This document shows positions 8,937 through 35,746 of a stretch of DNA of 64,000 nt, piece by piece (positions within the stretch are counted from its first letter, which is position 1; every line of letters starts with the position of its first letter). The stretch comes from Butyricimonas faecihominis (GTDB taxonomy: Bacteria; Bacteroidota; Bacteroidia; Bacteroidales; Marinifilaceae), in NCBI RefSeq assembly GCF_033096445.1, contig NZ_AP028155.1, positions 811,880 to 875,879 of the forward strand, given 5' to 3'. Below the pieces are notes generated by a model that had not been told where the DNA came from, ran no database searches, and was given only the letters and a program-made list of their open reading frames with translations. The position numbers and the translations under genes are program-made.

Positions 8937-9488
8937 ATGATAGATGAGGAGTTGATTTTATCCGGGGTAAATCGCAAGAACGAAAAGGCTTGGGCAAGTC
9001 TTTACGATCATTATTATGCGGCATTGTGTGCATACGTGAACCGGATATTGAAAGGCTCCGAGAGTACTGAGGATTTAGTGCAGGAGGTTTTTATTGCCAT
9101 CTGGAGGTCTGAAAAAAGATTTGCTTCCATGCAAGATTTGACTCGTTACTTGTATCGGGCTTGCTATAATAATGCGTTGGTGTTTGTGCGGAATAACCAG
9201 ATTCATGATACGATATTGAACTCAATAGGAGCAGAAAGTGATTTTACGGCTGACGATGTGTATGCTCAAACGGTTCGGGAGGAAGTAACCCGGCAGTTGT
9301 ACGTGTATATTGAAGCGTTACCTTCGGAACAGAAAAAGGTTATATTAATGAGTATTGAAGGGTATTCATGGGATGAAATTGCAGAAAAATTGGGGATAAG
9401 TGTAAATACGGTCAAGACTCATAAAAGTCGTGGATTCAAATCTTTACGTTCAAAACTGCAAGATTCCGTGTGTTTATTTTTAATTTAA
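8937..9488 (+). CDS. ECF sigma-70 factor of locus A
   Basis: A 183-residue ECF sigma factor. Region 2 is seen in LYDHYYAALCAYV and LVQEVFIAIW (about residues 22-60). Region 4 is a helix-turn-helix with GYSWDEIAEKLGISVNTVKT near the C-terminus. It would direct RNA polymerase to its target genes when released by the FecR protein encoded next. The open frame extends back to 8805, but the promoter lies inside that extension, so ATG 8937 is used. FecR, SusC and SusD follow in the same direction, the classic order for a sigma/anti-sigma/TonB-transducer switch. Confidence 0.9.
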   Translation: MIDEELILSGVNRKNEKAWASLYDHYYAALCAYVNRILKGSESTEDLVQEVFIAIWRSEKRFASMQDLTRYLYRACYNNALVFVRNNQIHDTILNSIGAESDFTADDVYAQTVREEVTRQLYVYIEALPSEQKKVILMSIEGYSWDEIAEKLGISVNTVKTHKSRGFKSLRSKLQDSVCLFLI

Positions 9489-9564
9489 TTGAAAAAAAGA
9501 GCCTCTTCGTGTCATCTGAAATCAAGAGTTGTGTATTATGAGTATACAATGTGGAAGATAACAG

Positions 9565-10725
9565 ATGATGAAAAAGAAAAACATATATGATGATGCGTCT
9601 TTGATCAAAAAGTCGTTGATAAAAGATTTAAGTGATAAGGAGCAAAAGGAATTAGATCAATTGCTGGATGACCAATCCTTACAAGATGTATACAAGGAGT
9701 TGAGTGATCGTGGTTATTTGAAAAAGCAATTTATGGAATACGAGAAGTATTCTTCCCAAAAAGCTTATCGCGAGTTTAAGGAAAGAAGAGGACATTCCGG
9801 ACGAATCAGAATCGTACGTTGGGTTGCTGTGGTTGCCGCCGTGTGGGTGTTGGCATTGGGTGTTACATTATGGATGACTTTTGGGAAGAAAGAAAATGTC
9901 GCTCCACTTCCGGTGGCCTCGAAGATTATTCCGGCTGGGGAGAAAAAAGCTACATTGACGTTAGCGGATGGAACGGAGGTTCACGTTGAGGAAATAACCG
10001 CACAAATATTGCAGGAGAAGGGGATGAATATTGAATATAGGAATGGGGAGATTGTTTATCACAAAAGTGAAGAAAAAACGACAGAGGTTGTTTATAATAA
10101 ACTTGAGGTTCCCCGGGGGGGTGAATGTATGATTAAACTAGATGACGGGACGAAGGTATGGGTAAATGCGGAGACGAAGTTGAAATATCCGGTAACCTTT
10201 GTCGGTGACCGTCGGGAAGTGGTTTTGGAGGGTGAGGCATTTTTTGATGTGGCAAAAAACGAAAAACCTTTTATCGTGAAAACTTCTTTTGGAGATGTAC
10301 GGGTGTTGGGAACAGCCTTTGGAATAAGTGCTTATGCGAGTGAACCGGAAAGTTATACTACTTTGGTAAGGGGTAAAGTGAGCGTTGAGAGAGAGGGGAT
10401 AAAACCTGTTGTTATTTTACCGGGAGAACAGGTAGTGACTTCTAAAGATGGGAAGATGATCAAACAGCAGGTGGATGTTGAAGAGTTCGTGGGATGGAAA
10501 GATGGCATTTACGTGTTCAAGGAGAAGAGTTTGGGTGAGATTATGAAAACTTTGGAAAGATGGTATAACATATCCGTGGATTTCCAAGAGAAGAGTTTGG
10601 TTGATTTGCCATTTACGGGTAATTTGAAACGTTATGATGATATAAATGTATTTTTCGATGCTTTGACTCGTACCGGGGATATGAAGTATCGAGTGGAAGG
10701 AAATCAAGTGATCCTATTTAAATAA
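9565..10725 (+). CDS. FecR family anti-sigma factor of locus A
   Basis: A 386-residue inner-membrane regulator. Residues 1-85 are cytoplasmic and should bind the sigma factor; one membrane helix spans about 86-106. The periplasmic FecR domain (about 172-265) has the patterns VPRGGECMIKLDDGTKVWVN and EGEAFFDVAKNEKPF. The C-terminal DUF4974 domain (about 315-386) probably contacts the STN domain of the SusC protein. It lies 76 bp after the sigma gene and 73 bp before SusC. A second ATG at 9568 is an equally good start. Confidence 0.92.
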   Translation: MMKKKNIYDDASLIKKSLIKDLSDKEQKELDQLLDDQSLQDVYKELSDRGYLKKQFMEYEKYSSQKAYREFKERRGHSGRIRIVRWVAVVAAVWVLALGVTLWMTFGKKENVAPLPVASKIIPAGEKKATLTLADGTEVHVEEITAQILQEKGMNIEYRNGEIVYHKSEEKTTEVVYNKLEVPRGGECMIKLDDGTKVWVNAETKLKYPVTFVGDRREVVLEGEAFFDVAKNEKPFIVKTSFGDVRVLGTAFGISAYASEPESYTTLVRGKVSVEREGIKPVVILPGEQVVTSKDGKMIKQQVDVEEFVGWKDGIYVFKEKSLGEIMKTLERWYNISVDFQEKSLVDLPFTGNLKRYDDINVFFDALTRTGDMKYRVEGNQVILFK

Positions 10726-10729
10726 AAAC

Positions 10730-10774
10730 GAGATAACGGACTACAAATTTCTCAGGTTCGATGTCCATTATCTC
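10730..10774 (+). promoter_or_regulatory. Long hairpin between FecR and SusC
   Basis: Inverted repeat GAGATAACGGAC / GTCCATTATCTC, 12-bp arms with one mismatch and a 21-nt loop, followed by ATTT. It could attenuate or process the transcript between the low-level regulator and the high-level transporter. Nothing shows which. Confidence 0.45.
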
Positions 10775-10798
10775 ATTTAACAAGTAATTTACAAATCT

Positions 10799-13700
10799 AT
10801 GAAAAAAAATCCATTCTTGAGGTGGAAAAGGCTTGTAAAATGTAGAAGCTTTTTTCACGTGATGAGTTTAACACTTATCTTGACATTGAGTAGTTTGTCG
10901 GGATATGGAGCGAAAGCCGTGCGAGACACTATTTCTTTGAATTTGCAAGAAGTGAAATTAGAGAGGTTCGTGGAAGTGATGAAACAAAAGACAGGATTGA
11001 ATTTCCTGTATAATTCATTGCTGTTTAAAGATGCGAAACTAATTTCCGTGACAGCAAACGGGGAGAATTGGGAATCCGTGTTGAGGAAAGTTCTAGAGAA
11101 GGAAGGTTTCACGTATGACGTGAAGGATGAGATTGTAGTGATCAAACGGAAGGTTGAGAATGATCATGACAAGTTGGTCATTGTTAAGGGACAAGTTGTT
11201 GATTCAAAGAAAGAACCACTTCCGGGAGTAACCGTGTTATTGAAGGGAATGACCATCGGAACTGTGACGGATTCCAAAGGAAATTTTTCAATTCGGGTTC
11301 CTCAAGGTGTGGATTCTTTGATTGTCAGTTTTATCGGTATGCAGACCGAATATCTGAAACTTGAAAAAGATAAGTTGGAATACACGGTTGTTATGAAGGA
11401 AGATGTGACTCAGTTGGGAGAGGTTGTTGTGACTGGTTATCAGGAATTTGATAAGACCAGAATGGCTGGTTCTGTTTCTTCTATTAAAGCAGAAGATTTG
11501 CATTTCAGTGGAACTAATACGTTGGAACAGGCATTACAGGGGCGATTACCGGGTGTTGTTATCACAAATACAAGTGGACTGGTCGGGGTACGGCAAAAAA
11601 CAAGAGTTCGGGGAACTTCGACGTTGTTAGGTAGCCAGGAGCCGATTTGGGTCGTGGATGGGATTATTCAAGAAGATCCACTTCCGTTTGATGCGCAAAC
11701 CTTTAATAGTGTAGGAGAAATTAATTCAGATAACTTTGATTATATCCGGAATTTTGTAGGTAGTTCAATTTCGTGGTTGAATCCTAGTGATATCGAGAGT
11801 ATTACAGTCTTGAAAGATGCTTCTTCTACTGCAATTTATGGGGTCCGGGCAGCTAATGGTGTAATTGTCATTAAGACAAAACGAGGAAAAACGGGAGCCG
11901 CTTCAATTTCTTATTCTGCTTCTTTGAATGTGGCAGAACAAGTTACTTACGATAAATTGGAACTGATGAATTCTAAAGAACGAGTTGCGGTGTCTCGTGA
12001 AATATTTCAAAGAGGTTTAACAGCTTCTTGGACAAATAATAATATTGGTTATGCCGGGGTATTAAAGCAGTATTTGGATAAAGAAATTTCTGGAGATGAG
12101 TTTGAGCGGCGTGTTGCTAAGTTGGAAACAACAAATACGGATTGGTTTGATATTCTTTTTCGTAATCCATTCAGTCACAATCACTCGATTTCTGTTTCCG
12201 GTGGTAGTGAAGATATACGTTATTATACATCTTTATCGTATAATTCCACCAAGGGAACTGCTGTCGGAAATGATTCTGAGTCTTATGGAGCGAATGTGGG
12301 GTTGGATATGACGGTAACGAATAAATTTAGGGCTTCTTTCTCGTTGTCTGGATCTCATGGAACGACAAAAGGTTTTACTATCGTTAATCCTTATGAATAT
12401 GCCACTAAGACAAACCGAGCAATAGCGGCTTATGAAGATAATGGAGATTTGTCTTATTACCAAAAAGAAAGTGGTTATTTGTTTAATATTATTAATGAAA
12501 GAGATGAATCGGGAACTTCTAATAAAACTTTTTCTCTTAACTCGAATTTGAATTTGAATTATGATTTTACGGAATCTTTGAAGTTTCAGATGCTAGGAAG
12601 TGTGAATGTAGCTTCAGTTATAGGAGAAGCTTGGGCTACGGAAAGAACAGAATATATAGCTAAAATTCGGTGGTATGATTATGGCGTTTACAAGGCTGTT
12701 GATGCTGAATATAAAAATTCACAACTTCCTGTGGGAGGTGAGTATAGTCAGGATGAGAACAAATCGGTATCTTGGAATTGGAGAAATTCTCTTTCTTATG
12801 ATAAAGTATTTAATGGGAAACACGCTTTAACAACCATGTTGGGAGTTGAATTAAGTAGTACAAAGAATACAGGTTATTCTTCAACAACATATGGTTATTT
12901 AAAATATAGGGGAAAATCATTTGCCCAAGTTCCGATAGTTCGGACTAATCCGTATGGTAATACTCAATCTGCAAATGAGTTATTGGAAAAATTTACTCGT
13001 AAGATTACAGATAAGAAAACTAATCAATTTGGGGCCTATTTAACAATGAATTATGCTTATGATGGAAAGTATGTGGTTAATTTTAGTGTACGATTAGATG
13101 CATCCAATCGTTTTGGCCGTTATGCCAATGAAAATTTTAACCCAGTATGGGCAGGAGGACTTCGTTGGAATGTTTCTAGGGAGACTTGGTTTAACAAGCA
13201 AAATATCGTGTCAGATTTAAGTTTACGTTTTAGTTATGGTTATCAAAGAAATATGGCAACTAATTATAGTCCATCTTTGATTGTAAAGGTTCCTACTGGG
13301 TCTGCTAGTGAAATCACAGATCAAAATACAGGAGATGATTTACTTGAAATTAGTTCTCTCCCGTATGAAGATTTGCGTTGGGAGAAAACTTCTTCGTACA
13401 ATTATGGGGTAGATATGGGCTTGTTTCAGAATAAAATTCGTGTTGGTTTTGAATATTACTTGAAGAAAGGAAAAGATATGATTACTTCCTTATTAGTACC
13501 TCGGGAATATGGTATAGAGAATATGCCAGTGAATGGTGGGAGCATGAATAATTCTGGTTGGGAATTAAGTGTAAGTTTTACCCCTGTACGAACAAAGAAT
13601 TTTACTTGGGATATGGGACTGAATACATCCAAGAATAATAATAAGATCACGGAAGTCGGGATACAGAATCTAACCTGGAGAACGGTTGTAGGTGGAGAGT

Positions 13701-14374
13701 ATTACAAAAAGGGTTATCCTGTTTCTTCATTTTGGGCTTTTGACTGTGAGGGGATAGATCAACAAACTGGTTATCCAATTATTAATTTGGACGTACACGA
13801 TGGAAGTGACCCATTGAATGATCCTACTGCTTATATGAGGTATGCCGGGAAATTGGATCCGGATTTTACGGGGGGATTAACTATGTCTTTTAGATACAAA
13901 CAATTATCTTTATCCACCAATTTTTATTTACAAGTTGGAGGTAAAAAGTTTTTAATGACTGCTTATGAGTCACAAACACTTCCTTCTGAATATGAGAATC
14001 TATCTTCTGAGTTGAATAATCGTTGGAAACCGGGGGATACGAATGCAAAATTCCCGGGATTGCCAGATAAAAATGTTGTAAATTCTTTGCTTCCGGATAC
14101 TAAGACATACACAAATGTTTACGAGATGTATAATTACAGTAATGTACGGGTAGTGAATGCTTCGTCATTAAAATGTAATAGTATTGCATTGAATTATTCT
14201 TTCCCGGAGCAATTAGCAAAACGTTTTGGAGTAAAATATATTAGTATGGGTGCAAGTATGTCTAACCCTTTTACTATTGCTAGTAAGGATTTCAAGGGAC
14301 GGAATCCCGAGGTTGCAACGGGAGCACAACCGGTGACCAGTTCGTATTCGTTTAATCTTAGTGTAACTTTTTAG
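10799..14374 (+). CDS. SusC/RagA TonB-dependent transporter with STN domain (locus A)
   Basis: A 1191-residue outer-membrane transporter. In order it has a signal peptide (to about residue 38), an STN signalling domain (about 45-115), a carboxypeptidase-regulatory-like domain (about 127-202, VKGQVVDSKKEPLPGVTV), a plug beginning at EVVVTGYQ, then a 22-strand-type barrel ending in NLSVTF. SusC proteins import large ligands, gated by a SusD lid and powered by TonB. The STN domain implies that it also signals to the FecR protein just upstream. The four secreted peptidase-like proteins that follow suggest peptides as ligand; this is inference. The barrel part is more AT-rich than the flanking genes. 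Confidence 0.93.
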   Translation: MKKNPFLRWKRLVKCRSFFHVMSLTLILTLSSLSGYGAKAVRDTISLNLQEVKLERFVEVMKQKTGLNFLYNSLLFKDAKLISVTANGENWESVLRKVLEKEGFTYDVKDEIVVIKRKVENDHDKLVIVKGQVVDSKKEPLPGVTVLLKGMTIGTVTDSKGNFSIRVPQGVDSLIVSFIGMQTEYLKLEKDKLEYTVVMKEDVTQLGEVVVTGYQEFDKTRMAGSVSSIKAEDLHFSGTNTLEQALQGRLPGVVITNTSGLVGVRQKTRVRGTSTLLGSQEPIWVVDGIIQEDPLPFDAQTFNSVGEINSDNFDYIRNFVGSSISWLNPSDIESITVLKDASSTAIYGVRAANGVIVIKTKRGKTGAASISYSASLNVAEQVTYDKLELMNSKERVAVSREIFQRGLTASWTNNNIGYAGVLKQYLDKEISGDEFERRVAKLETTNTDWFDILFRNPFSHNHSISVSGGSEDIRYYTSLSYNSTKGTAVGNDSESYGANVGLDMTVTNKFRASFSLSGSHGTTKGFTIVNPYEYATKTNRAIAAYEDNGDLSYYQKESGYLFNIINERDESGTSNKTFSLNSNLNLNYDFTESLKFQMLGSVNVASVIGEAWATERTEYIAKIRWYDYGVYKAVDAEYKNSQLPVGGEYSQDENKSVSWNWRNSLSYDKVFNGKHALTTMLGVELSSTKNTGYSSTTYGYLKYRGKSFAQVPIVRTNPYGNTQSANELLEKFTRKITDKKTNQFGAYLTMNYAYDGKYVVNFSVRLDASNRFGRYANENFNPVWAGGLRWNVSRETWFNKQNIVSDLSLRFSYGYQRNMATNYSPSLIVKVPTGSASEITDQNTGDDLLEISSLPYEDLRWEKTSSYNYGVDMGLFQNKIRVGFEYYLKKGKDMITSLLVPREYGIENMPVNGGSMNNSGWELSVSFTPVRTKNFTWDMGLNTSKNNNKITEVGIQNLTWRTVVGGEYYKKGYPVSSFWAFDCEGIDQQTGYPIINLDVHDGSDPLNDPTAYMRYAGKLDPDFTGGLTMSFRYKQLSLSTNFYLQVGGKKFLMTAYESQTLPSEYENLSSELNNRWKPGDTNAKFPGLPDKNVVNSLLPDTKTYTNVYEMYNYSNVRVVNASSLKCNSIALNYSFPEQLAKRFGVKYISMGASMSNPFTIASKDFKGRNPEVATGAQPVTSSYSFNLSVTF

Positions 14375-14379
14375 TTGAT

Positions 14380-15843
14380 ATGATTATGAAAAATAACTTA
14401 TATGTATGGCTTTGGGGAATTTTATTTATCTGTTCTTCTTGTCATGATTTCTTTAAAGAATCAAGTCAAGATGAGATAAAACCGTCTACGGTAGAAGATT
14501 TACGCTCCGTGATGTACAAGGAGGCTTATCCTTATCAGTTTGCATCAGATAGTTATTTGATGTTATTGACAGATGAAATACAATGTAATGGTTCTTTGAA
14601 TGAAATGTATGCAACAAAACATGAAAACGGAACTCCTGTGTTTACTTTTAATCCAATGATGTTTGACGGGGGAGAATCGTTTCCGGATGATGTAAACTCG
14701 TGGAAAGTGTATTACGAGAAGATTATGGGATGTAACGTGATTATTGATTATATTCCAGAGGTGTCCGGAACTGAGCAGGAAAAGAATGCGTTACTTGGGC
14801 AAGCAATTTTATTACGAGGATTTTATTATTTGAAATTAGCAATGATTTATTGTCAAGCTTATAATGCGGAAGGTGTTGATCCCAAAACGGCATTGGGAGT
14901 ACCTTTGATATTAACGATGGACTTGACTGATGATTATCCTGAACGATCTTCATTAGAGACCTTGTATGGACAGGTAGAAGAGGATTTGTTAACAGTAACT
15001 TCTTTATTAGAAGAAAATTATGAGCCGGATAATGTTTACCGGGTAGGAAATATAGCTGCTTACGTATTACTTTCTCGTTTTTATTTGTTTCGTGGAAGTG
15101 ATGAAGATTTGGATAAAGCGATTCAGTATGCCCAAATGGCAATAGAACAAGGTCCGATGTTAACACGTTTGTCTATGTTGGTAGGAACAGACAAAAGTAT
15201 TTATGATAGTGATGCTAGTTCAGAAGTTGTTTGGTGTTATGGGGGTAAATCTTTTTATAATTCTAGTTCTCCCTATTTTTTCACCCAATCTTATCAAGAG
15301 ATTGTTCCTTGGGATGTATCGTCTCAATTGTTGGGTGCATATGGAACAAATGATTTAAGGGATGATGTTTATTTTAGTACAGACTTTGTTAGAGGAACTT
15401 ATGGAAGTAAGATCGGTTATAATTCTTCATATGGTGGTGACCACGGTATTCGTATGGCTGAAGCTTATTTAAACCGGGCAGAAGCATTAACCCGTCGTTT
15501 CATGACAAAAGGCGATGAAAATGATCGGGTACAGGCATTGAATGATTTGAATACATTGAGAGAGACTAGATATGTTGCCGGGACTTATGTAGATGAAGAG
15601 ATTACGAATGCGCAGGATTTATTGGATTTTTGTGTGAATGAACGTAGATTGGAGTTATGTATGGAGGAAGGCTTCCGTTGGTTTGATATTAAACGTTTTG
15701 GTTTATCTGTGACTCATAGATATATTGATAGTGAAGGAACAGAACGGGAATATGTATTGGAAAGTAACTCTTTATTGTATGCTTTACCTATCCCGTATGA
15801 TGCAATGGAACGAAATTATAAATTAAAACAAAATCCCAGATAA
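14380..15843 (+). CDS. RagB/SusD family surface lipoprotein (locus A)
   Basis: A 487-residue lipoprotein with a lipobox ending in Cys21 (ICSSC), which should sit on the cell surface as the ligand-binding lid of the SusC protein encoded 5 bp upstream. Typical SusD features are helical TPR-like segments (RGFYYLKLAMIYCQAYN, AEAYLNRAEAL) and the C-terminal motif NERRLELCMEEGFRWFDIKRFGL, here split as NERRLELCMEEG and RWFDIKRFG. The in-frame ATG at 14386 is an equally possible start. The lipoprotein gene that follows begins 3 bp after its stop, so the genes are co-transcribed. Confidence 0.92.
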   Translation: MIMKNNLYVWLWGILFICSSCHDFFKESSQDEIKPSTVEDLRSVMYKEAYPYQFASDSYLMLLTDEIQCNGSLNEMYATKHENGTPVFTFNPMMFDGGESFPDDVNSWKVYYEKIMGCNVIIDYIPEVSGTEQEKNALLGQAILLRGFYYLKLAMIYCQAYNAEGVDPKTALGVPLILTMDLTDDYPERSSLETLYGQVEEDLLTVTSLLEENYEPDNVYRVGNIAAYVLLSRFYLFRGSDEDLDKAIQYAQMAIEQGPMLTRLSMLVGTDKSIYDSDASSEVVWCYGGKSFYNSSSPYFFTQSYQEIVPWDVSSQLLGAYGTNDLRDDVYFSTDFVRGTYGSKIGYNSSYGGDHGIRMAEAYLNRAEALTRRFMTKGDENDRVQALNDLNTLRETRYVAGTYVDEEITNAQDLLDFCVNERRLELCMEEGFRWFDIKRFGLSVTHRYIDSEGTEREYVLESNSLLYALPIPYDAMERNYKLKQNPR

Positions 15844-15846
15844 AAT

Positions 15847-16812
15847 ATGAAATGGAGTTATTTTTATATCGAATTATTGTTTTTGTCAATATTGACAGTT
15901 TCATGTTACGATGAAAAGGATTTGGAACCTTCAAATATAGTTTCCAGTTATTCTGTTCCTCAAGGGACACATGATTATGATGATGTAATTGTAGATATTT
16001 ATGATCAATATAGTAGTTGTTTATTATATAAGTTTACAGACAAGGATACTTATTGGACTCCTTCCGGTTGGATGAATGGAAGTTTGGGAGAAGAGGGAAC
16101 AAATGGTTACATTGTAACTCCGGCAGACGAGAATTATGTTGGTCAACAAGTAGATTTACTTCAAAATGCATGGTTTTCTTTCTATTCGGATGAGTTTTTG
16201 AAAGAATTCTTACCCGTAAAAATTATGCTTTGTTCTAATATAGACTCTGTATATGCAGAATATGATTTTTCTGAAGGTTTTAAAGTGATATACAAAGGAA
16301 AGGGAGTAAATGCTTGGTATAATTACGATAATATATGTGTATCTTATGGTAATGAAACTGTGATACAGATGACGAAAGAGGATACTTTAGCTTTCCGGAG
16401 GAAAATAAATCAGATTTTTATAGAGAGTATGATTGGGAGAGGTAAAACTTCACCTACGAAAGAATTTGAGGAAGTTACAAACTATAAAACAGATGGTATC
16501 AATAGTATGAGTCCTGTGGAATTATGGAAATTAGGAGTTCCGTGTGCTAGTCTGAAGACCTATAGTGTTTCGGTTGAAACAGATTGGACGAGTTTCTTGA
16601 TGATGATGATAACTTTTAGTGAGGAATTTTTAACAAGAACTCCCGAATATTTCAATGAATGGGATCATTCTATGGCGAACTGGGATGGTATCTTGAATCC
16701 GGCAAAAGATGTAAACGGTCTTTTGAAAAAGCGGTATGATATGGTGCGGGATTATTTTATCGAGAATTATAACATGGATTTGCAAAAAATAGGCAATGAA
16801 TTAAATCGTTAG
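15847..16812 (+). CDS. Peptidase_Mx1-like lipoprotein lacking zinc ligands
   Basis: A 321-residue lipoprotein (LTVSC, Cys20). Its plan resembles the putative zinc-binding metallopeptidase lipoproteins (Peptidase_Mx1 type) usually found next to SusCD pairs. The resemblance is clearest in the C-terminal KKRYDMVRDYFIENYNMDL and in the PTKEF-VT pattern at 203-211. Where such proteins carry an HExxH-type site before that pattern, this one reads INQIFIESMIG (187-197) with no histidine, so it is probably not a peptidase but a binding or scaffold protein. The family match was made from memory without an alignment. It sits between SusD and an intact zincin, 3 bp and 1 bp from its neighbours. Confidence 0.6.
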   Translation: MKWSYFYIELLFLSILTVSCYDEKDLEPSNIVSSYSVPQGTHDYDDVIVDIYDQYSSCLLYKFTDKDTYWTPSGWMNGSLGEEGTNGYIVTPADENYVGQQVDLLQNAWFSFYSDEFLKEFLPVKIMLCSNIDSVYAEYDFSEGFKVIYKGKGVNAWYNYDNICVSYGNETVIQMTKEDTLAFRRKINQIFIESMIGRGKTSPTKEFEEVTNYKTDGINSMSPVELWKLGVPCASLKTYSVSVETDWTSFLMMMITFSEEFLTRTPEYFNEWDHSMANWDGILNPAKDVNGLLKKRYDMVRDYFIENYNMDLQKIGNELNR

Positions 16813-16813
16813 T

Positions 16814-19231
16814 ATGAAATATTTGTTGATTATATTGTTTTCCCTGTACGTATTAAGTAGCGGGGCTGAGAATCGTGTGGTTCAGAAAGAGGATGAGAAA
16901 GAGGTGTCTATAGATGAATTTATTCATAAAGATACCCCGAAAGATGCCGGGTTCTTTCATGTTTATGTACAGGATGGAAGATATTATCTGGAAGTACCGG
17001 ATGATAAACTTGAACGGGATATTCTGGTGGCCGTAACGATCATAAAGGGAACGGCACAGAAAGAGCGGAGTACGGATGCTCGTTTCGGGTATGGCGGGGA
17101 CTCCGTGTATGATCGGTTGATTCGTTTTATCAAGAATCAGGATAGAATTGAAATTGTATCTCCTCAGGTATTTTACCTGGGAGATACTCCCGCCTTGTAT
17201 GATGATTATATTAAAAATGTGATCTCTCCCGTGATGTATTCTTTGGAGATTAAAGCCAAATCTGCCGATAGTTATTTGGTAGATATTACCGATTTGTTTC
17301 TGAGTGATTGTGATTTGTTTTCCTTGAAAGGAGCGAAGGTAGCCTTAAAATTAGGCGGTTATCAGCAGGAGCAGTCCTATGCTTTGGATGTAAAAGCTTT
17401 TCCGGAAAATATAAATTTCCGTTCCATGCGTGGTTATGCTGTTGACGGGGAAGTGAAGGATGGTGGGTACACTTCTTCTCTTTGGGAGGTGGGGGCGTCA
17501 TGGTTTCTTTTACCGGAGAAACCGATGAGACAAAGAATGTTTGATGATCGGGTGGGGTATTTTACCTTCGTGTTGGATGGGATGACGAAACGGAATGACC
17601 AGATGGAAAAAGCGGCATTTGCAACTCGTTGGCGTTTGGAGCCGAAACCGGAGGATATGGAAAAATATTTGCGTGGAGAACTTGTGGAACCCGTGAAACC
17701 GATTGTTTTCTATATTGATCGGGCAACCCCGGAATATTTGGTGCCTTATTTTATAAAAGCGGTAAATGCGTGGCAGGGTGCTTTTGAGAAAGCCGGATTT
17801 AAGAATGCGATTTACGGAAAGTTAGCCCCCTCGCCGGAGGAAGACCCTGAATATAGCGAAGGTGATATTCGTTATCCGTTAGTATCGTACAAAGCCTCCC
17901 CGATTCCGAATGCTTACGGTCCGATGGTGTTTGACCCTCGATCCGGGGAAATTATCACCTCGCATATTGCAATATTTCATTCGGTTCTGGATTTGTTACA
18001 ACGTTGGTATTTCGTGATGTGTGGGGCGGTTGATTCCCGTGCAAGAGAATACCCTCTAAGCCATGAGGTAATGGGAGAACTGGCGGCAACCGTGTTGACT
18101 CATGAAGTGGGACATACGTTAGGACTTCGGCATAATTTTATCGGTAGTACGGCCTATCCGGTGGATAGTTTGCGTAGCAAGGCTTTTATCCGTGAACATG
18201 GTTTGGGAACTTCCATTATGGATTATCAACGTTTTAATTATTTGGCACAACCGGAAGATGGTTTGGAACCGCAAGATTTATTGCCTCGTATCGGGATATA
18301 CGACGAGTTTGCGATAGAATGGGGGTATCGTTGTTTTCAGGAGACAAATAATCTGGTGGAAAATGATTTGAAGTTACGTGCTTGGGTGGATGAAAAGCGG
18401 AAGGACCCGAAGATGTTTTATATCGTGGAAACGGATTATAGTGATCCCCGAGTACAATCTGAAGATAGTGGGGATGACATCATCAAGGCGAATCGCTTGG
18501 GAATGAAAAATTTGAAATATATCATGGAGCATCTGGAAGAATGGACAAAAACGAGTGATCCGGATTATTACGCTTTACGAAGACGCTATCTTTCCGTGTT
18601 GAGTCAGTACCAGAATTACGTGAACCACGTGATCCGTTACGTGGGTGGTAGTTATACGGATAACCCGACGAGGGAAGAAGAGAGTTTAACGGTGTATCAA
18701 CCTGTACCTAAGGAAAAGGAAGAGGAGGCACTTGCTTTCTTGGAAGAATACGTGTGTCGGGAACCGGAATGGCTTTTTCGGCCCAATTTAATGGAAAAGA
18801 CCGGTATTAATTTTGAATATTATGAGCAGGAACCGGCCAATAGTATGATAACTAAATTGTTATTAAAGTATTCGATATTACATAAAAACCGGCAATTAAA
18901 CCCGGATGGTTTGACTATTGACGAGTTGCTGGATCGTATGTACGTGACTCTCTTTGAAGAAAAGGGTAGGAGTGGAGAATTATCCCGGTATGACAGGGCA
19001 TTGCAAAAGGGATTTGTGCAGGATCTTGTCGTGAACGGGGAGAATCCGACGACTTTATTTAACGGGGTTGGAGTTCGTATCAAGCAACTGGTTTCGAAAA
19101 TAAAACAATATGTGTTGACCGCCTCGGGGGAGGGACAAGATGCGTTGACGGTCAGTCACTACAAAACACTTTATAATTTTATTACTCTGTGGGAGAGCGG
19201 AAAGAATAAGTCATTGATTGAATTGAACTAA
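16814..19231 (+). CDS. Zinc-dependent metalloprotease, DUF5117/DUF5118 type (intact)
   Basis: An 805-residue secreted zincin with signal peptide (to about residue 18). The catalytic motif HEVGHTLGLRH begins at H430, giving three zinc histidines (430, 434, 440) and the base E431. The Met-turn follows in SIMDY. The N-terminal half matches the DUF5118/DUF5117 domains found in Bacteroidota proteases, and the length fits. It probably cuts proteins or peptides in the periplasm or at the outer membrane. The start lies 1 bp after the preceding stop. A paralogue without the catalytic residues follows after 11 bp. Confidence 0.9.
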   Translation: MKYLLIILFSLYVLSSGAENRVVQKEDEKEVSIDEFIHKDTPKDAGFFHVYVQDGRYYLEVPDDKLERDILVAVTIIKGTAQKERSTDARFGYGGDSVYDRLIRFIKNQDRIEIVSPQVFYLGDTPALYDDYIKNVISPVMYSLEIKAKSADSYLVDITDLFLSDCDLFSLKGAKVALKLGGYQQEQSYALDVKAFPENINFRSMRGYAVDGEVKDGGYTSSLWEVGASWFLLPEKPMRQRMFDDRVGYFTFVLDGMTKRNDQMEKAAFATRWRLEPKPEDMEKYLRGELVEPVKPIVFYIDRATPEYLVPYFIKAVNAWQGAFEKAGFKNAIYGKLAPSPEEDPEYSEGDIRYPLVSYKASPIPNAYGPMVFDPRSGEIITSHIAIFHSVLDLLQRWYFVMCGAVDSRAREYPLSHEVMGELAATVLTHEVGHTLGLRHNFIGSTAYPVDSLRSKAFIREHGLGTSIMDYQRFNYLAQPEDGLEPQDLLPRIGIYDEFAIEWGYRCFQETNNLVENDLKLRAWVDEKRKDPKMFYIVETDYSDPRVQSEDSGDDIIKANRLGMKNLKYIMEHLEEWTKTSDPDYYALRRRYLSVLSQYQNYVNHVIRYVGGSYTDNPTREEESLTVYQPVPKEKEEEALAFLEEYVCREPEWLFRPNLMEKTGINFEYYEQEPANSMITKLLLKYSILHKNRQLNPDGLTIDELLDRMYVTLFEEKGRSGELSRYDRALQKGFVQDLVVNGENPTTLFNGVGVRIKQLVSKIKQYVLTASGEGQDALTVSHYKTLYNFITLWESGKNKSLIELN

Positions 19232-19242
19232 ATATATTAGGG

Positions 19243-21573
19243 ATGAAAGTATTGAATGTATGTTTGTTACTGATAGTAACTTTATTGATGTCTCGTCCGG
19301 TTGTTGCGCAAAATAATGCAGAACCGATGACATTCAGTCAATTTAAGGAACAGAAAGATTTACAAATAAATAACGGTTTTTACACGGTTTATCGTTTAGG
19401 AGATAAATATTACTTGGAGATTCCAATGGAAGGAATGGGAAAAGAGGTTTTGATCACGACACAAGTGGTGCGGGGATATTCGGCTTTTCTTTCCGAGACT
19501 TCAGGAGTTGTCCGGTTTTCGATCGGGAAAAACAATCGAGTTCAAGTGGTTCGTAACCGGGTTACGGATGTTGCTGCGGATTCAACTGATTTTTGTATGG
19601 CGAATGCGATTCGAAAATCAGGACTTGTACCGGTGGATTTTACCTTGCCGATAGCGGCTTGGGGAGAAGATAAGCAGTCGGTGATTATTGAGTTAACGAA
19701 CGAATTGAATAATCCCGGAAGTGGGTTATTTAAGGTGAGTTCTTATAGTTTATTAAGCCATCCGGATCCTAATCTTTCTGGAATTGACGGTTTCCGGATG
19801 TTGAATCAAGGGGTTGTTTTTTCGGTGACACGTACCCAGTCGGATTTTTATGCAAATCCTCAAATGCAACAGGGATCGGATGTCGCCTCTACTTTTGCAT
19901 TGGAAATGGTTATTCAGCAACTGCCAGAACATTCCGTGACCTTGAAAGCCAGTCATCCGGCTTATGGTTTTGAAACAATCGGGATTACCGAATATGATAC
20001 CAAGAGATACGTGGCCCGTAAAAAAGAGTATATACAGAGGTGGCATCTTTCGGCTCCCGTGAAGGAGTTGCGAAAACAGAAGAAAGGTTTGACTATTGAA
20101 CCGGAAAATCAGATTTGCGTGTACATCGATCCGATCACCCCGGCCCCTTTTGTCGAGAGTATCAAGAAGGCCATGCAACAATGGGAAAAAGCATTCGAGA
20201 GTGCCGGATGGAAGAATGTCTTCCGTTATAGTTCGGAGGCGAAAGATGCAGCCTTGACTTACCGGACGATTCTTTTTCGTTGGGGAAATGCTTTTAACGA
20301 TGTTAATTTTTCCATGATTGCCAATCCTGTGAATGGTGAAATATTATGTGCCCGAATTAACGTGATGGATGCCATGGCAGATGAATTGTTAGGCACTTAT
20401 TTCTTGCAATGTGGGTGGCTGGACGGGAGAATCCGGAAGGATCTTCATAGCTTGGGGGTACGGCAAGATGTGTTGACCGTTCAACTGGCATCGATTTTGG
20501 CCAAGGTATTGGGAATGAAACCTAATAAAGCCGGAAATACCGTTTTTACCCCGGATAATATTCGTTCCGAGAAATGGTTGAATAAATATGGAATATCGGC
20601 ATCAATTACTTCCGGTATGGTGTTTAATTATCTCGCTCAACCGGGTGACCGGGTAAGTGTCAAGAATCTTTTTCCTCGTGTTTCCATGTATGATTATGAT
20701 GCGATTAACTATGCTTATGGCAATAGTGATGCCTTACCTTCCATGCAGGCGGCTTTCTATGCCCCGGAGGATAAATGGGACCCCTATGCTCAAGACGGTT
20801 TCTTGTCAAATGATATTTTGTCGGCAAGTGTGAAAGGCATCGAATCGGTACGGGAGATTTATCCTCAACTGGGAGAATGGATGAACCAGTTACCGAAAGA
20901 TCAGAATACATGGAAAAGTGTATCCGATTTCTCGCTGAAAGTGCTTGCACTATACCAGACTTATCTGACTCAGATTGTGAAATTGGTGGGAGGTCGTTCT
21001 ATTCGTCCGGTCATAAAAGGAGTGAATGAATCTCCGGTTATTTATGTCCCGAGAGAACTTCAGGAAAAGGCTTTACAATATTTAGAGACAGAAATTTTGA
21101 CACAACGTCCGGAGTGGGTTCATTCCAAAGAAATGCAACAAACGGGGACATACGATATAAACCATATGATGGTAGGATTGGCCGAGAAAATCACGCAACA
21201 TTTTATAGATCCGAAAGTCATCACTTCCCTCGTGGCGGCAGAAAGTGCATACGGGGAGAATGCGTTCACGGCGAAAGAATTATTCGCGTATGTTGATCGG
21301 GTTATTTTTGAAAATTTTGATACCCGGAAGGCTGTTACTACCTATAAACAAGGAATACAGGCTTGTTTTATTTCGGATTTTGCCCGAACAATGGCACAGA
21401 ATAACATCTCTTTTGGCTTGGGAAACGAGTCTGCGGGAGTCCTTCATGCCTATTTCGTGGAACTGGCGAGAAAAGTGAAGGAATTGAGTGAAACTCACCA
21501 AGATTCCCTTACCCGGGAAAACTACCGGGTGATGCTGATGCGAATGAACCGAGAGTATTTTGATAAACAATAA
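19243..21573 (+). CDS. DUF5117-type metalloprotease homologue without active site
   Basis: A 776-residue secreted protein (signal to about residue 23, VVAQ) homologous along its length to the zincin just upstream. Shared landmarks include the pattern PxxFNYLAQPxD and LxPRxxxYDxxAI. At the catalytic motif it reads SILAKVLGMKP (417-427) in place of HEVGHTLGLRH, and the Met-turn SIMDY is replaced by SITSG. All three zinc histidines and the glutamate are gone. The frame is intact, so it is a maintained pseudoenzyme, not decay. It may pair with the active copy as partner, inhibitor or substrate adaptor; that is inference. Confidence 0.85.
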   Translation: MKVLNVCLLLIVTLLMSRPVVAQNNAEPMTFSQFKEQKDLQINNGFYTVYRLGDKYYLEIPMEGMGKEVLITTQVVRGYSAFLSETSGVVRFSIGKNNRVQVVRNRVTDVAADSTDFCMANAIRKSGLVPVDFTLPIAAWGEDKQSVIIELTNELNNPGSGLFKVSSYSLLSHPDPNLSGIDGFRMLNQGVVFSVTRTQSDFYANPQMQQGSDVASTFALEMVIQQLPEHSVTLKASHPAYGFETIGITEYDTKRYVARKKEYIQRWHLSAPVKELRKQKKGLTIEPENQICVYIDPITPAPFVESIKKAMQQWEKAFESAGWKNVFRYSSEAKDAALTYRTILFRWGNAFNDVNFSMIANPVNGEILCARINVMDAMADELLGTYFLQCGWLDGRIRKDLHSLGVRQDVLTVQLASILAKVLGMKPNKAGNTVFTPDNIRSEKWLNKYGISASITSGMVFNYLAQPGDRVSVKNLFPRVSMYDYDAINYAYGNSDALPSMQAAFYAPEDKWDPYAQDGFLSNDILSASVKGIESVREIYPQLGEWMNQLPKDQNTWKSVSDFSLKVLALYQTYLTQIVKLVGGRSIRPVIKGVNESPVIYVPRELQEKALQYLETEILTQRPEWVHSKEMQQTGTYDINHMMVGLAEKITQHFIDPKVITSLVAAESAYGENAFTAKELFAYVDRVIFENFDTRKAVTTYKQGIQACFISDFARTMAQNNISFGLGNESAGVLHAYFVELARKVKELSETHQDSLTRENYRVMLMRMNREYFDKQ

Positions 21574-21577
21574 GGAT

Positions 21578-24500
21578 ATGAGAAAGATTTTATTTTTGCT
21601 TGTAGGACTGTTGGCATACTGTCAGGCAGAGTCACAAAACAGGGAAATCGAGTTTGAAAAGTCCACTTTGCAGGATGCTTTAAATAAGGCTACTGCCGCG
21701 GGAAAAATGGCTTTCGTGGATTGTTACACGGAATATTGCGGCCCTTGTAAGACAATGGCGGCGTTGGTTTTCACGTTGGATAGTGTTGCCGACTTTTTTA
21801 ATTCCAATTTTGTAAATGTTAAATTGGATATGCTGTCGGAAGATGGGAAACAATATGCGGATAAGTACAAAATCGGGGCCTATCCTTCTTTCCTACTTTT
21901 GAATGGTAAGGGTGAGTTGCTTTATAAGTTTGTCGGGGGAAAATCGGCAGATGTGTTTATGGCCGAAATTAGAAAGGGGATGAAACCTGATAACCGGGTG
22001 AAATCAATGGATGATACTTACGCCACGGGTAAGTATTCCAATGATTTTTTACGGGAGTACGTGCAGTTGAAATTGCAGTTGCTTGAGAAAGGGGAAAGCC
22101 TTAGATTGGGGAAGGAGTATTTCGATAAAATTTCGCCAGAAGAACGTTTACAACCGGAGAACTGGTTCTTGTTTGCGGATCGGACTCTGGGCGGGATCAA
22201 TAGTACGAATATGCGATACTTGCTTGAGCATTGGCAGGATTTCGTGAGGGTACAAGGAGAAGAAAAAGTGTATGAACGAATTACAGCTTTCTACCGGGAT
22301 ATGACGGAATGGGTGTTACAAGGTTGGTATTTCCGGGATTTTGAACGTAATCCGGAGGATTTCGTGTACTATCGGCAACGGATTTCGGCAATTCCTCTGC
22401 CTTGTCAGAATGATTACTTGGTTATGATGGACGTGGCGAAAGCGGTCACCTTAAATGATTCCTTGACGGTTCGGGGACTTTTGGAAGATCATGTTGCCGA
22501 TTTTAGCAATGAAAATCAACAAATCATGTTCGGTGGGATGGGATGGTTCCCTTCCTATAACGGGGTATATCATGAACAGTTACTGGAAATTGCCCGAAAG
22601 GTGGTTCAAGGTGGTTCAACCTCTAATTTGGCCAACTATTTAAAGACTTTACTTAATCCGGATGAGGCATACGTGGGCGAGAAATATGACGTGCAGAATC
22701 TGAAGGATAAGATCGGTTCCACGATGATTGTACCTTTCTTTCACCCGGCGAAACCATTGTTTTGGTACTCTTACGAGAAACAACCGGGCGAGAGAGCGTA
22801 TTATGCCTATGACCCGAAGGAGGGGAAACGAGAGGTGTATAACTACCGGATTATAGATAGTTTGGTCCGGGAGATATTGCCGGGGGAAGAAGAGAGAATA
22901 TATTATAACCCGGAATTTGATGATAACGGGTTGGTGGCTAAATTAGAGGTCGGGGGAAAGATATTCGTGTATGATGCCAAGAATAAGGCTTTGATTCCTT
23001 CTGAACGCAAGAAATATCCTTCTATTCGTCCGTATGGGGTTTCTCCCGATCTGAGATACGAGCTAATCGTGAAAGAGTATAATCTTTGGTTGGAAGATAA
23101 AGAGCAAAAGAAACAGGTACAACTGACTTTTGACGGGGATAAGGATTACGAGTTTGAAACGGCAAATACCGAATGGTTGTCGGATGACGGGACTTTTTAT
23201 CTCACGAGAGAAGACAAACGAAATATCCGGACGTTTCCTCTGGTGTATTCACTTCGGGAACCGGCACCGACAGTCAGCGAGTACAAATATGAATTACCGG
23301 GAGATACCGCTGTTTTAAAACAAGAGTTGTTTATCGGGAACGTAAAGACGGGGATGTTTAAAAAGGTGGATGTGGTGAAATGGCGGGGGCAGCTATTGGA
23401 AGTGCTGAAAGTGGCAGATGTACAGGATCGGGTCTTTTTCATCCGTAAAAAGGGGACCCGAAATGAATTTGAATTATGCTCGGTCGATGCGAAAACAGGG
23501 GAGGTAAAGGTGATTTTGCATGAAGTGAGTAAACCATATCTGAATGAAGAGTTATTTAGTTGCCGGGTATTGAATGGAGGAAAGGATATTCTTTTGTGGT
23601 CCGATCGTTCCGGGTGGGGGCATTATTATCACTATGATGGTAATGGCAAGTTGCTGAATGTGGTGACTTCCGGGGAATGGACAGCGGGACGCATAATGAA
23701 GATTGACACGGTGAAAAAACAGATTTATCTGTACGGGTTCGGTAAGGAAAAGGGGAGAAACCCGAATTATACTTATTTGTATCGTGTAGGTTTTAATGGA
23801 AAACGATTGACCTTGTTAACCCCTGAAAATGCAACACATAGCACGTTTGTTCATCTGGGAGGAGGTCTGATCGTGGATAATTTTTCCCGTGTAGACACGG
23901 TACCACAAATTTCCGTACGTGATATAAACGGGCGCTTGCTGACTATTTTGGAAAAAGCGGACGTTTCTCATTTGTTGGCGTATGGTTGGAAGTACCCGGA
24001 ACAGTTTACCGTGAAGGCGGCTGACGGGAAAACGGATCTTTACGGAATTATGTGGAAACCTTATGATTTTGATCCTAGCAAGAAATACCCGATCGTGTCG
24101 CAAGTATATCCGGGGCCACAAACGGAAACCGTGTGGACGGATTTTACCGTGCTGGATCGTTATAATAATACGGCTTTGGCACAAAGGGGGATTATCGTGG
24201 TGTGTTTCGGACATCGGGGCGGTTCTCCCTTCCGGGACAAAGCGTACGCTACCTACGGGTACGGGAATTTACGGGATTATGCGTTAGCGGATGACAAGGC
24301 GGGATTGGAACAATTGGGACGTAAATATTCTTTTATTGATACGAATCGGGTAGGTATTTTCGGACACTCGGGGGGTGGTATGATGGCTTTTGCTGCAATC
24401 TGTACTTATCCTGATTTTTACAAAGTGGCTGTGGCCTCATCGGGTAATCACGATAATCGTATTTATAATCGTACGTGGGGAGAGACTTATCAAGGAATCG

Positions 24501-24763
24501 GGGACGATTATAAGTTTACCGTGAAAACAAATCAGAAACTGGCAAAATACTTGAAAGGTCGTTTACTTCTGGTGACAGGAGAGGTGGATAATAACGTGCA
24601 TCCGGCTAACACGTACCGGGTGGTGAACGAGTTGATTTTGCAAGGAAAGGATTTCGATTTGTTGATCTTACCGAATCAAGGTCATGCTTTTGATGGGCCT
24701 TATAAATCTTATTTCGAAAAGAAGAAAAGGGATTATTTCACGAAATATTTACTGGCTGAATAA
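21578..24763 (+). CDS. Thioredoxin-like domain fused to S9 (prolyl oligopeptidase/DPP-type) peptidase
   Basis: A 1061-residue secreted protein. A signal peptide (about 1-18) is followed by a thioredoxin-like domain with CGPC at 54-57, a linker of about 250 residues, a beta-propeller region of the DPP4 N-terminal kind and an S9 catalytic domain. The triad is visible: S931 in GHSGGG, D1004 in GEVDNN and H1036 in NQGHAF. S9 enzymes release dipeptides or cut after proline. ATG 21578 follows the previous stop by 4 bp and has a TAAGGAT ribosome site; an in-frame start at 21560 would overlap the previous gene. It is the last gene of locus A, ended by a terminator. Fusion of a redox domain to S9 is uncommon and may allow reduction of disulfides before cutting. 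Confidence 0.9.
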   Translation: MRKILFLLVGLLAYCQAESQNREIEFEKSTLQDALNKATAAGKMAFVDCYTEYCGPCKTMAALVFTLDSVADFFNSNFVNVKLDMLSEDGKQYADKYKIGAYPSFLLLNGKGELLYKFVGGKSADVFMAEIRKGMKPDNRVKSMDDTYATGKYSNDFLREYVQLKLQLLEKGESLRLGKEYFDKISPEERLQPENWFLFADRTLGGINSTNMRYLLEHWQDFVRVQGEEKVYERITAFYRDMTEWVLQGWYFRDFERNPEDFVYYRQRISAIPLPCQNDYLVMMDVAKAVTLNDSLTVRGLLEDHVADFSNENQQIMFGGMGWFPSYNGVYHEQLLEIARKVVQGGSTSNLANYLKTLLNPDEAYVGEKYDVQNLKDKIGSTMIVPFFHPAKPLFWYSYEKQPGERAYYAYDPKEGKREVYNYRIIDSLVREILPGEEERIYYNPEFDDNGLVAKLEVGGKIFVYDAKNKALIPSERKKYPSIRPYGVSPDLRYELIVKEYNLWLEDKEQKKQVQLTFDGDKDYEFETANTEWLSDDGTFYLTREDKRNIRTFPLVYSLREPAPTVSEYKYELPGDTAVLKQELFIGNVKTGMFKKVDVVKWRGQLLEVLKVADVQDRVFFIRKKGTRNEFELCSVDAKTGEVKVILHEVSKPYLNEELFSCRVLNGGKDILLWSDRSGWGHYYHYDGNGKLLNVVTSGEWTAGRIMKIDTVKKQIYLYGFGKEKGRNPNYTYLYRVGFNGKRLTLLTPENATHSTFVHLGGGLIVDNFSRVDTVPQISVRDINGRLLTILEKADVSHLLAYGWKYPEQFTVKAADGKTDLYGIMWKPYDFDPSKKYPIVSQVYPGPQTETVWTDFTVLDRYNNTALAQRGIIVVCFGHRGGSPFRDKAYATYGYGNLRDYALADDKAGLEQLGRKYSFIDTNRVGIFGHSGGGMMAFAAICTYPDFYKVAVASSGNHDNRIYNRTWGETYQGIGDDYKFTVKTNQKLAKYLKGRLLLVTGEVDNNVHPANTYRVVNELILQGKDFDLLILPNQGHAFDGPYKSYFEKKKRDYFTKYLLAE

Positions 24764-24789
24764 ATTGTAATACGAATCGTGTAAGTGTG

Positions 24790-24826
24790 AAAGGAGATTT
24801 CCGGTAAAGCGGATTTCTCCTTTTTT
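24790..24826 (+). terminator. Terminator of locus A
   Basis: AAGGAGA / TCTCCTT outer stem and TCCG / CGGA inner stem separated by a short internal loop, followed by six T. Confidence 0.75.
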
Positions 24827-24861
24827 AATATCGTGGGAAAGAAAGGTTCTTGAAATAATTC

Positions 24862-25388: not shown

Positions 25389-26321
25389 ATGGAAGAATCA
25401 ATTGTTAAGGTAAAGCATTTATCTCATCGTTACAGTGTACAATGGGCGATTCGGGATATTAATTTTGAGATAACGGAAAACGGTATTTACGGTTTATTGG
25501 GTTCTAACGGGGCGGGTAAATCGACGACGATGAACATTATGTGTGGGGTGTTGAAACAGACAGAAGGGGAGGTTTTCATCAAGGGAGTAAGTATGAGAGA
25601 GAACCCGGTGGAGGCCAAACGCTATATCGGTTTTTTACCCCAGAAACCACCCCTGTATAATGATTTAACCGTGGAGGAATTTTTGGCTTTCACGGCTAAT
25701 ATTCGTCGTATTCCCACGGGAGAGGTGGCCGAGGCGATTAAGGTGGTGATGGGACGATGCGGGTTAAGCCATTTCCGCAAACGGTTGGTTCGCAATCTAT
25801 CGGGAGGGTATCAGCAACGTTTGGGGATAGCCCAAGCGATTATTCACAACCCGGCATTTGTCGTGCTGGATGAGCCGACCAACGGGCTGGACCCGAATCA
25901 GATCGTGGAGATTCGGCATTTGATTAAAGAGATTGCCGAGGAACGTACGGTGATTCTCTCCACGCATATCTTGTCGGAAGTACAGGCAACGTGTGATTAT
26001 ATCCGGATGATCGAGGAAGGACAGGTCGTTTTTGCCGGAACGGTGGAAGAGTTTGATAATTATATCGTACCGAACACGATATTCGTGAGTCTGGCATCGG
26101 CCCCGCCGGTGGACGAGTTGAAGATGCTTTCCGGTGTGGAGGATGCGGTGAGCATGGGAGGCATGGATTACCGGGTAAACTTTTCGGATTCCCGGGAGGC
26201 GATTACCCAGATCGTGGAGGCAAGTGTGACCCGGAATTGGCAATTGTTGGAGATACGTATGGAGAAGAGTTCCATGGATAGCGTGTTTGCCGAATTGTCG
26301 GCCAAGAGTAAGAACCGCTAA
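25389..26321 (+). CDS. GldA-like ABC transporter ATP-binding protein
   Basis: A 310-residue ABC ATPase. Walker A is GSNGAGKST (38-46), the signature LSGGYQQRLG begins near residue 137, and Walker B plus D-loop is VVLDEPTNGLDP. The switch histidine is in LSTHILSE. The type resembles GldA of gliding bacteria and other ABC-2 exporters. The two GldF-GldG fusion genes that follow (12 bp and 18 bp spacings) are its likely membrane partners. No other gliding or type IX secretion genes are in the window, so a motility role is not supported here. Confidence 0.9.
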   Translation: MEESIVKVKHLSHRYSVQWAIRDINFEITENGIYGLLGSNGAGKSTTMNIMCGVLKQTEGEVFIKGVSMRENPVEAKRYIGFLPQKPPLYNDLTVEEFLAFTANIRRIPTGEVAEAIKVVMGRCGLSHFRKRLVRNLSGGYQQRLGIAQAIIHNPAFVVLDEPTNGLDPNQIVEIRHLIKEIAEERTVILSTHILSEVQATCDYIRMIEEGQVVFAGTVEEFDNYIVPNTIFVSLASAPPVDELKMLSGVEDAVSMGGMDYRVNFSDSREAITQIVEASVTRNWQLLEIRMEKSSMDSVFAELSAKSKNR

Positions 26322-26333
26322 AAAGGAGAGCTT

Positions 26334-28622: not shown

Positions 28623-28640
28623 TCTTTAAAAGTTTGTTTT

Positions 28641-30979: not shown

Positions 30980-32167
30980 ATGAGTATAGATAGCATACAT
31001 ATCATATTGGATTTGATTCTGAAATCTTGGGCAGGGACGCTCACGCAACCGGAAGAAGAACGGTTGAACGAGTTGCTGGAGGACCCGGAGTGGGCACGGC
31101 TGAAACAGGATTTGGAAGATGATCGTTTTATCATGGGACGTTTTAAAGAATACGAGAAATACGATAAGATTGCCGATTTTTCATGTTTCTTGAAACGAAT
31201 CCGCAAACATAAGAAACGGAGGGTGTTGACCGCAAGTGTCCGCCGTACGATTTACGTGGCGGCCTCTTTACTTGTTTTTGTCATGGCCGGTGGCGTGTGG
31301 TGGTCGGAACGGACAGCGATGATTTCCCCGGAAGAGGGGCGGGAAATCGTGATAGAGACGACGATTGATCGGAATAGTGTACGGTTAATTTTGGGGGATA
31401 ACCGGATGATTCCGTTGACTCATAAAAACGAGGCTATCGTGTTAGGCATGAGGGGTATATTACATTCTGAGGGCCTGAGAACTTTGAATTACAAGTACGT
31501 GAAGAGTGATTCTCTCGAAAACGTGTCCGAGTACCACACGTTGATTGTGCCGAAGGGAGAAAGGCAGAAGGTTATTTTTTCTGATAGTAGCTGGGTGATA
31601 CTGAACGCGCAGTCAACCATGAAATACCCGGTGGCGTTCCGTGGGGAAGAGAGAAAAGTGTACGTGGAGGGAGAGGCCTATTTTGAGGTGACAAGAGATG
31701 AGGAACACCCGTTTATCGTGTCGGTCAAGAATTTTGACGTGCGGGTGCTGGGAACCAGCTTTAACGTGATGAGTTATGATGATGAATTTGCATCGAGTGT
31801 TACTTTGTTATCCGGGAAAGTGGAAACGACTTCCGGGCATGATACGGTTCGGTTGTCACCGGGCGAGCAAGTGTCGATAACAAGTGATAACCGGATGACG
31901 GTTCAAAAAACAGATATAAATGTCGTAGTGTCATGGATGGATGGAAAATTCGGTTTTAGTAACGAAAGACTGGATGTGATCATGAGGAAGATTTGTCGTT
32001 GGTACGATGTGGAAGTACTGTATGCGGTTCCGGGAATCAGAGAACGTCGCTTTACCGGGGCGCCTGCAAATAATATGCCGTTGAAAGAGCTGTTGGAGGC
32101 ATTAAGTACCACGACAAATCTACAATTCTCTTTACAGGATGGAGTGATAACCATTAAACAAAATTAG
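30980..32167 (+). CDS. FecR family anti-sigma factor of locus B
   Basis: A 395-residue inner-membrane regulator. A cytoplasmic part (1-85) is followed by a membrane helix (about 89-107), then a periplasmic FecR domain with VPKGERQKVIFSDSSWVILN and EGEAYFEVTRDEEHPF, and a C-terminal DUF4974 domain ending in GVITIKQN. No sigma gene lies directly upstream; the likely partner is the sigma factor at the far end of the locus (39987). If the motif at 30943-30969 is the promoter, the mRNA would start almost at the ATG, so it could be leaderless or the motif could be an operator. The next in-frame Met is far inside the protein. Confidence 0.9.
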   Translation: MSIDSIHIILDLILKSWAGTLTQPEEERLNELLEDPEWARLKQDLEDDRFIMGRFKEYEKYDKIADFSCFLKRIRKHKKRRVLTASVRRTIYVAASLLVFVMAGGVWWSERTAMISPEEGREIVIETTIDRNSVRLILGDNRMIPLTHKNEAIVLGMRGILHSEGLRTLNYKYVKSDSLENVSEYHTLIVPKGERQKVIFSDSSWVILNAQSTMKYPVAFRGEERKVYVEGEAYFEVTRDEEHPFIVSVKNFDVRVLGTSFNVMSYDDEFASSVTLLSGKVETTSGHDTVRLSPGEQVSITSDNRMTVQKTDINVVVSWMDGKFGFSNERLDVIMRKICRWYDVEVLYAVPGIRERRFTGAPANNMPLKELLEALSTTTNLQFSLQDGVITIKQN

Positions 32168-32210
32168 AACACGTAAGAAATTAACATTTAAACATGAATT
32201 AATAGAATCA

Positions 32211-32240: not shown

Positions 32241-32340
32241 CTAACTAATCTACGAACTGTGGTGAAACCCGTGCGGGAGATCGTAATGGGATATGATGTC
32301 AAGCAAGGTTTCATCCTTATGAAAATTAAAACTGATCTAT

Positions 32341-35733: not shown

Positions 35734-35746
35734 TCGAATTAAAACT

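Follow-up and report, generated by a model that had tools for sequence, protein, structure and literature searches.

SusCD systems have been studied mostly for the uptake of glycans, and little is known of how gut Bacteroidota take up proteins and peptides. In the levan and dextran Sus-type utilisomes of gut Bacteroidetes, SusCD and extra surface lipoproteins form one complex (PMC7618045). RagAB of Porphyromonas gingivalis is a SusCD-type oligopeptide importer whose surface alleles vary among strains, with four ragAB alleles (PMC11817032), and in the FusA/FusC system a TonB-dependent receptor is paired with a periplasmic M16 protease in which one half is active and the other inactive (PMC6071955). 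The locus described here probably resembles RagAB in linking a SusC/SusD-type transporter to protein use; unlike RagAB, its transporter unit includes a sigma/FecR pair, a peptidase-like lipoprotein without its zinc-binding motif, an active and a dead metzincin encoded side by side, and a thioredoxin-peptidase fusion.

The window, a stretch of 64,000 nucleotides from the single-contig, 4.85 Mb genome of Butyricimonas faecihominis, carries eight co-directional genes on the plus strand. They encode an ECF sigma factor (8937-9488; TIGR02985 above cut-off, Sigma70_r2/r4 domains), a FecR-type anti-sigma factor (9565-10725; FecR and FecR_C domains), a SusC/RagA-type TonB-dependent transporter with an STN-like signalling domain (10799-14374; TIGR04056, E 5e-210), a SusD/RagB-type surface lipoprotein lid (14380-15843), a surface lipoprotein with the Mx1 fold that we call pseudo-Mx1 (15847-16812; PF15890, E 1.6e-5), a DUF5118-DUF5117-DUF4953 met-zincin, zincA (16814-19231; DUF4953, E 1e-96), its dead twin zincB (19243-21573; DUF4953, E 1e-46), and a thioredoxin (CGPC) fused to an S9 alpha/beta-hydrolase peptidase, Trx-S9 (21578-24763; Thioredoxin, DPPIV_N and Peptidase_S9 domains). 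This order, the domains and the 1-11 bp spacing from SusC onward had been proposed in an earlier note on this DNA, and the ORF list (gaps of 5, 3, 1, 11 and 4 bp from SusC to Trx-S9) and the Pfam and NCBIfam scans bear them out. The same scans found no glycoside hydrolase or CAZyme in the eight genes, ruling out a glycan utilization locus; the genes encode peptidases and redox equipment instead, in support of the note. A hairpin 3' of the Trx-S9 gene (~24789-24824; dG -19.7 kcal/mol, z -5.5) and the T stretch after it (U in the transcript) form a likely intrinsic terminator (24789-24830, plus strand) that would end the eight-gene unit; it is not listed by a promoter/terminator consensus scan, whose performance is near chance level.

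Beyond the locus, positions 25389-30926 encode an ABC ATPase and two ABC2_membrane/ABC_transp_aux proteins (a gliding-type ABC system), and paralogous pairs of the ATPase and a 769-aa protein adjoin two other Mx1-like SusCD loci of the source genome (L012 and L185). A second locus, FecR-SusC-SusD-DUF4843-PKD_2, occupies 30980-40544 and ends in an ECF sigma gene. It is followed by a C-5 cytosine DNA methylase (41012-42286) and two proteins without a Pfam match (42436-43317, plus strand; 43819-45468, minus strand), and the stretch 41012-45468 is possibly a restriction-modification unit.

The sigma factor, FecR and STN-type transducer stand in the order of a trans-envelope signalling circuit, with clear assignments for sigma and FecR and an STN domain in SusC at E 0.0005, under the Pfam cut-off. 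SusC scores 700 bits against a TIGR04056 cut-off of 368, and SusD passes the cut-offs of both SusD_RagB and SusD-like_3, as expected for TonB-dependent import of the SusCD type. Pseudo-Mx1 narrowly misses PF15890 (24.9 vs 25.6 bits), falls well below TIGR04549 (23.5 vs 75 bits) and lacks HExxH, as do its counterparts in 7 orthologues and nine further Mx1-like genes examined in the source genome; it does not qualify as a zinc metallohydrolase of this family. Its model (pLDDT 75) has the Mx1 fold, matching 4l7a with a Foldseek E of 7e-7 and a VIA Z of 13.1 over 226 residues. Signal sequences, assigned by eye and with a simple pattern, place a lipid-anchor Cys on SusD and pseudo-Mx1, with acidic residues next in most loci (in the window, the mature SusD begins with Cys and then an acidic residue), and these N-termini resemble published surface export signals (PMC5080379). 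Only these two look like surface lipoproteins; zincA, zincB and Trx-S9 have plain signal peptides. The earlier description of four secreted proteins is thus too broad. Five other loci with a zincin pair (L002, L056, L057, L058 and L059) carry two lipoproteins of similar size after SusD.

The two zincins share the same three Pfam domains. ZincA has the motif HEVGHTLGLRH and a SIMDY Met-turn, and HExxHxxGxxH together with the Met-turn is kept by all 18 other aligned partners, so that zincA is, as had been supposed, an active-looking peptidase. ZincB, at ~776 aa with all three domains, has lost every zinc ligand and the catalytic Glu, and HExxHxxGxxH is absent from 22 of 22 readable dead twins; with pseudo-Mx1, this makes up the two catalytically dead proteins that had been read from the sequence. 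In the zincB model (pLDDT 83), the middle domain aligns to the catalytic domains of karilysin and MMPs with VIA-align, residues 241-497 giving a metzincin fold against karilysin 2xs4 (VIA Z 9.8, rmsd 3.4, 146 aligned). This core is visible by VIA-align only, a Foldseek search of the model against the PDB giving no match at E 0.001, and zincA has no near relative by sequence among solved structures (best E 0.08). In two dead twins (L057, 3671-5731; L059, 12051-14198) the segment around the former Met-turn is gone entirely.

The gene order recurs in two further Butyricimonas genomes and two other genera of the family (L043, L044, L045 and L046, in G001, G003, G033 and G029), and also in Mangrovibacterium lignilyticum (L098), Chitinophaga sedimenti (L099) and a further genome of the class (G767, L179). 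Outside the family it is patchy, the window's subtype being found in one of 394 other class genomes in a scan that scored two candidates per genome; searching named genomes with only the twin sequence gave no matches, and a profile search retrieved the loci. With paralogous subtypes counted, which we label a to g, 10 of the 59 family genomes carry 20 dead twins between them, and L098, L099 and L179 add three more. All 23 lie directly downstream of an HExxH zincin, with no orphan seen; the 22 intact ones all lack HExxH, the G018 copy is broken by a stop, and that of G002 (L057) is short. Of the 14 DUF4953 genes in the source genome itself, three tandem pairs (the window's, L001 and L002) account for six. 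A tree built on 19 dead twins and 19 partners groups 18 dead twins in one clade (100/99), 18 partners in another (100/99) and the eight single-copy zincins of the source genome in a third; the L058 pair has long branches and its placement is unsure. The simplest reading of this tree is a single old duplication with loss of activity, followed by co-inheritance.

The dN/dS of zincB against G003 is ~0.09, equal to that of zincA, a rough Nei-Gojobori value with dS near saturation, and it places the dead twin under the same purifying selection that acts on zincA. Pseudogene decay is ruled out by this value, by the depth of the clade and by readable copies that are all dead alike; random degeneration is ruled out as well, since in 80 loci no dead zincin occurs beyond the twin clade, save a split-frame piece in L099. 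Together, the recurrence of the gene order across genera and habitat classes and the purifying selection on zincB argue that the order is more than chance. The check that the earlier note had called for, a search for the same order in other genomes, thus finds the set conserved together and its dead proteins selected, and the conserved sigma/FecR-linked order across genera is in keeping with a single sigma-controlled gene set.

A pattern of exchange divides the locus in two. Aligned to G001, the window is mostly 94-99% identical at the nucleotide level on either flank and drops to ~58-87% between ~11,600, inside the SusC plug region, and ~16,800, the start of zincA. The dS values are 1.0-1.9 for SusC, SusD and the Mx1-like protein; for FecR, Trx-S9 and the two zincins they are ~0.1. 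The proteins of the divergent stretch are nearer to G003 than to G001, whereas the zincins are nearer to G001. This contrast in dS and the switch in nearest relative indicate that the low identity stems from recombination and not from fast evolution. Subtype b presents the same division in both directions: L054 and L055 share zincins at 97 and 94% identity, and SusC, SusD and lipoprotein at 82, 75 and 59%; L001 and L055 share SusC, SusD and lipoprotein at 94, 94 and 90%, and zincins at 81 and 79%. In two subtypes (a and b), then, genomes have exchanged the SusC barrel, SusD and pseudo-Mx1 as one cassette, bounded on one side by the beginning of the zincin; the segments concerned are 10799-16812 of the window against 4019-10049 of L043, and those among L001, L054 and L055. 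Since pseudo-Mx1 travels with the transporter and zincB with zincA, pseudo-Mx1 can be assigned to the capture complex at the surface and the zincin pair to a separate module, probably periplasmic, a division that agrees with the lipid anchors on SusD and the lipoprotein and the plain signal peptides on the zincins and Trx-S9. The four peptidase-like proteins had been taken as one mix; they are indeed conserved together, but the two dead ones part company, one belonging to the transporter cassette and the other to the enzyme pair. Selection on the surface trio by phage, antibodies or the ligand may lie behind the exchange.

The last gene product keeps its catalytic residues. The CxxC is conserved in the thioredoxin part of all orthologues, and the Ser/Asp/His triad of the S9 part (GHSGGG, D and H) is invariant in six. 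In 5yp1 and 2ecf a segment bears the Glu-Glu motif of DPP IV (S9B), which anchors the substrate N-terminus; here that segment is deleted or dissimilar. Because this segment is absent although the triad is kept, the S9 domain is unlikely to be a dipeptidyl peptidase of the classical type, which qualifies the redox-peptidase of the earlier note, whose CGPC and triad are both present. Thioredoxin and S9 are two adjacent genes in L099 (12242-15503) and L179 (3051-6423), indicating that the one-gene form is a fusion of neighbors. In four of the seven subtypes (a, d, e and f) the zincin pair is followed by thiol proteins whose CxxC is intact, which strengthens the redox part of the earlier note's interpretation, subtype d having an additional DsbD_N domain protein; none directly adjoins the pair in b, c and g, so redox function is not obligatory. 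In the source genome a thioredoxin gene follows within 7 kb after 9 of 12 Mx1-like genes (0.69 expected by shifting) and also after 19 of the 49 other SusC genes (4.4 expected), the latter enrichment indicating that redox proteins are general companions of SusCD loci here and not specific to the zincin pair.

From these parts we propose, as somewhat the likelier account, a signal-responsive system with surface and periplasmic modules that imports and digests peptides or small proteins; it is the enzymes that point to a peptide as the ligand. The SusC barrel, SusD lid and pseudo-Mx1 would capture the ligand at the surface, pseudo-Mx1 taking the position that a glycan-binding lipoprotein has in glycan systems and binding, without cutting, in its former peptidase cleft. 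Occupied SusC would signal through its STN domain to FecR and on to the ECF sigma factor, raising expression, and TonB-driven import would deliver the ligand to the periplasm, where the thioredoxin domain would reduce disulfides, zincA would cleave the polypeptide with zincB as a non-catalytic subunit that holds the substrate or serves as a scaffold, and the S9 domain would trim the products. The binding role of pseudo-Mx1 and the order of steps are what the parts suggest. ZincA and zincB may touch and act jointly as one machine: their distances correlate at 0.94, with 0.90 for zincA and SusC and 0.85 for zincB and SusC, correlations of a kind that also arises between operon partners without physical contact. 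Extended to the Bacteroidota, the proposal becomes more tentative, though still plausible: an obligate active/inactive heteromer of metzincin type, derived from one ancient duplication and fed polypeptides in the periplasm by SusCD, with a capture unit that uses a second dead peptidase as binder and is swapped by recombination as a plug-in cassette, independently of the protease pair, which remains in place.

Strict pairing, co-inheritance and purifying selection would equally be predicted if zincB were a regulator of zincA, a pro-domain-like inhibitor or a folding chaperone, and not part of a working heteromer, with import unchanged. The loss of the Met-turn segment from the L057 and L059 twins fits such a role, as substrate binding by the old active site is then not required; however, zincB retains its full three-domain length and a metzincin core, and it is encoded right after zincA, where a pure inhibitor would hold the enzyme off. 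We consider a regulator unlikely.

Two further explanations concern the purpose or the ligand of the import. Thioredoxin plus proteases under sigma/FecR control would suit the removal of antimicrobial peptides, host or bacterial and often disulfide-bonded, by import, reduction and cleavage, and surface cassettes exchanged between relatives would fit escape from phage, bacteriocins or antibodies. Against defense as the main job, the many paralogous SusCD-pseudo-Mx1-thioredoxin loci within one genome resemble a nutrient portfolio, and the conserved unit has no immunity or efflux gene, which makes this improbable. The ligand might instead be a peptide-bearing compound (a glycopeptide, siderophore or metal-peptide) from which the proteases merely free the useful part, given that ECF sigma-FecR circuits also serve iron uptake and that FusA/FusC takes up a protein to obtain the iron in it (PMC6071955); but the domain scan finds no glycosidase, siderophore or heme gene among the conserved genes, and we regard this as the least probable of the three. 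Import and digestion of peptides or small proteins remains the account we prefer.

In comparison with known systems, each part of the locus is of a known kind. Both zincins belong by profile to the DUF4953/DUF5117 'Met-zincin' family (PF16313), other copies of which adjoin SusCD in the source genome; a literature search, weak on subscription papers, returned nothing on the function of DUF4953/DUF5117 or on a conserved dead-twin clade. Pseudo-Mx1 shares its fold and its place as a SusCD-adjacent lipoprotein with the Peptidase_Mx1/TIGR04549 proteins (structure 4l7a), differing in its missing HExxH and its scores below both curated cut-offs. In the literature so searched, there is no description of the conserved dead metzincin twin, of pseudo-Mx1 as a binder or of capture cassettes being exchanged. 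The interest of the locus lies in a multiplied type with clear parts and two kinds of conserved dead peptidases, in which a natural recombination experiment parts the capture module from the digestion module. Like the utilisomes, the window encodes, as read from its genes, an extra lipoprotein after SusD; unlike them, it has no glycoside hydrolase or known glycan-binding lipoprotein, the extra lipoprotein being a peptidase fold without ligands. For an active and an inactive protease together with a TonB-dependent receptor, FusC would by analogy be the nearest precedent, and the mitochondrial processing peptidase, which is grouped with it, likewise combines an active and an inactive half, as zincA and zincB would; FusC, however, is an M16 protease with both halves in one chain, whereas the window encodes two separate proteins of the DUF4953 family with a metzincin fold.
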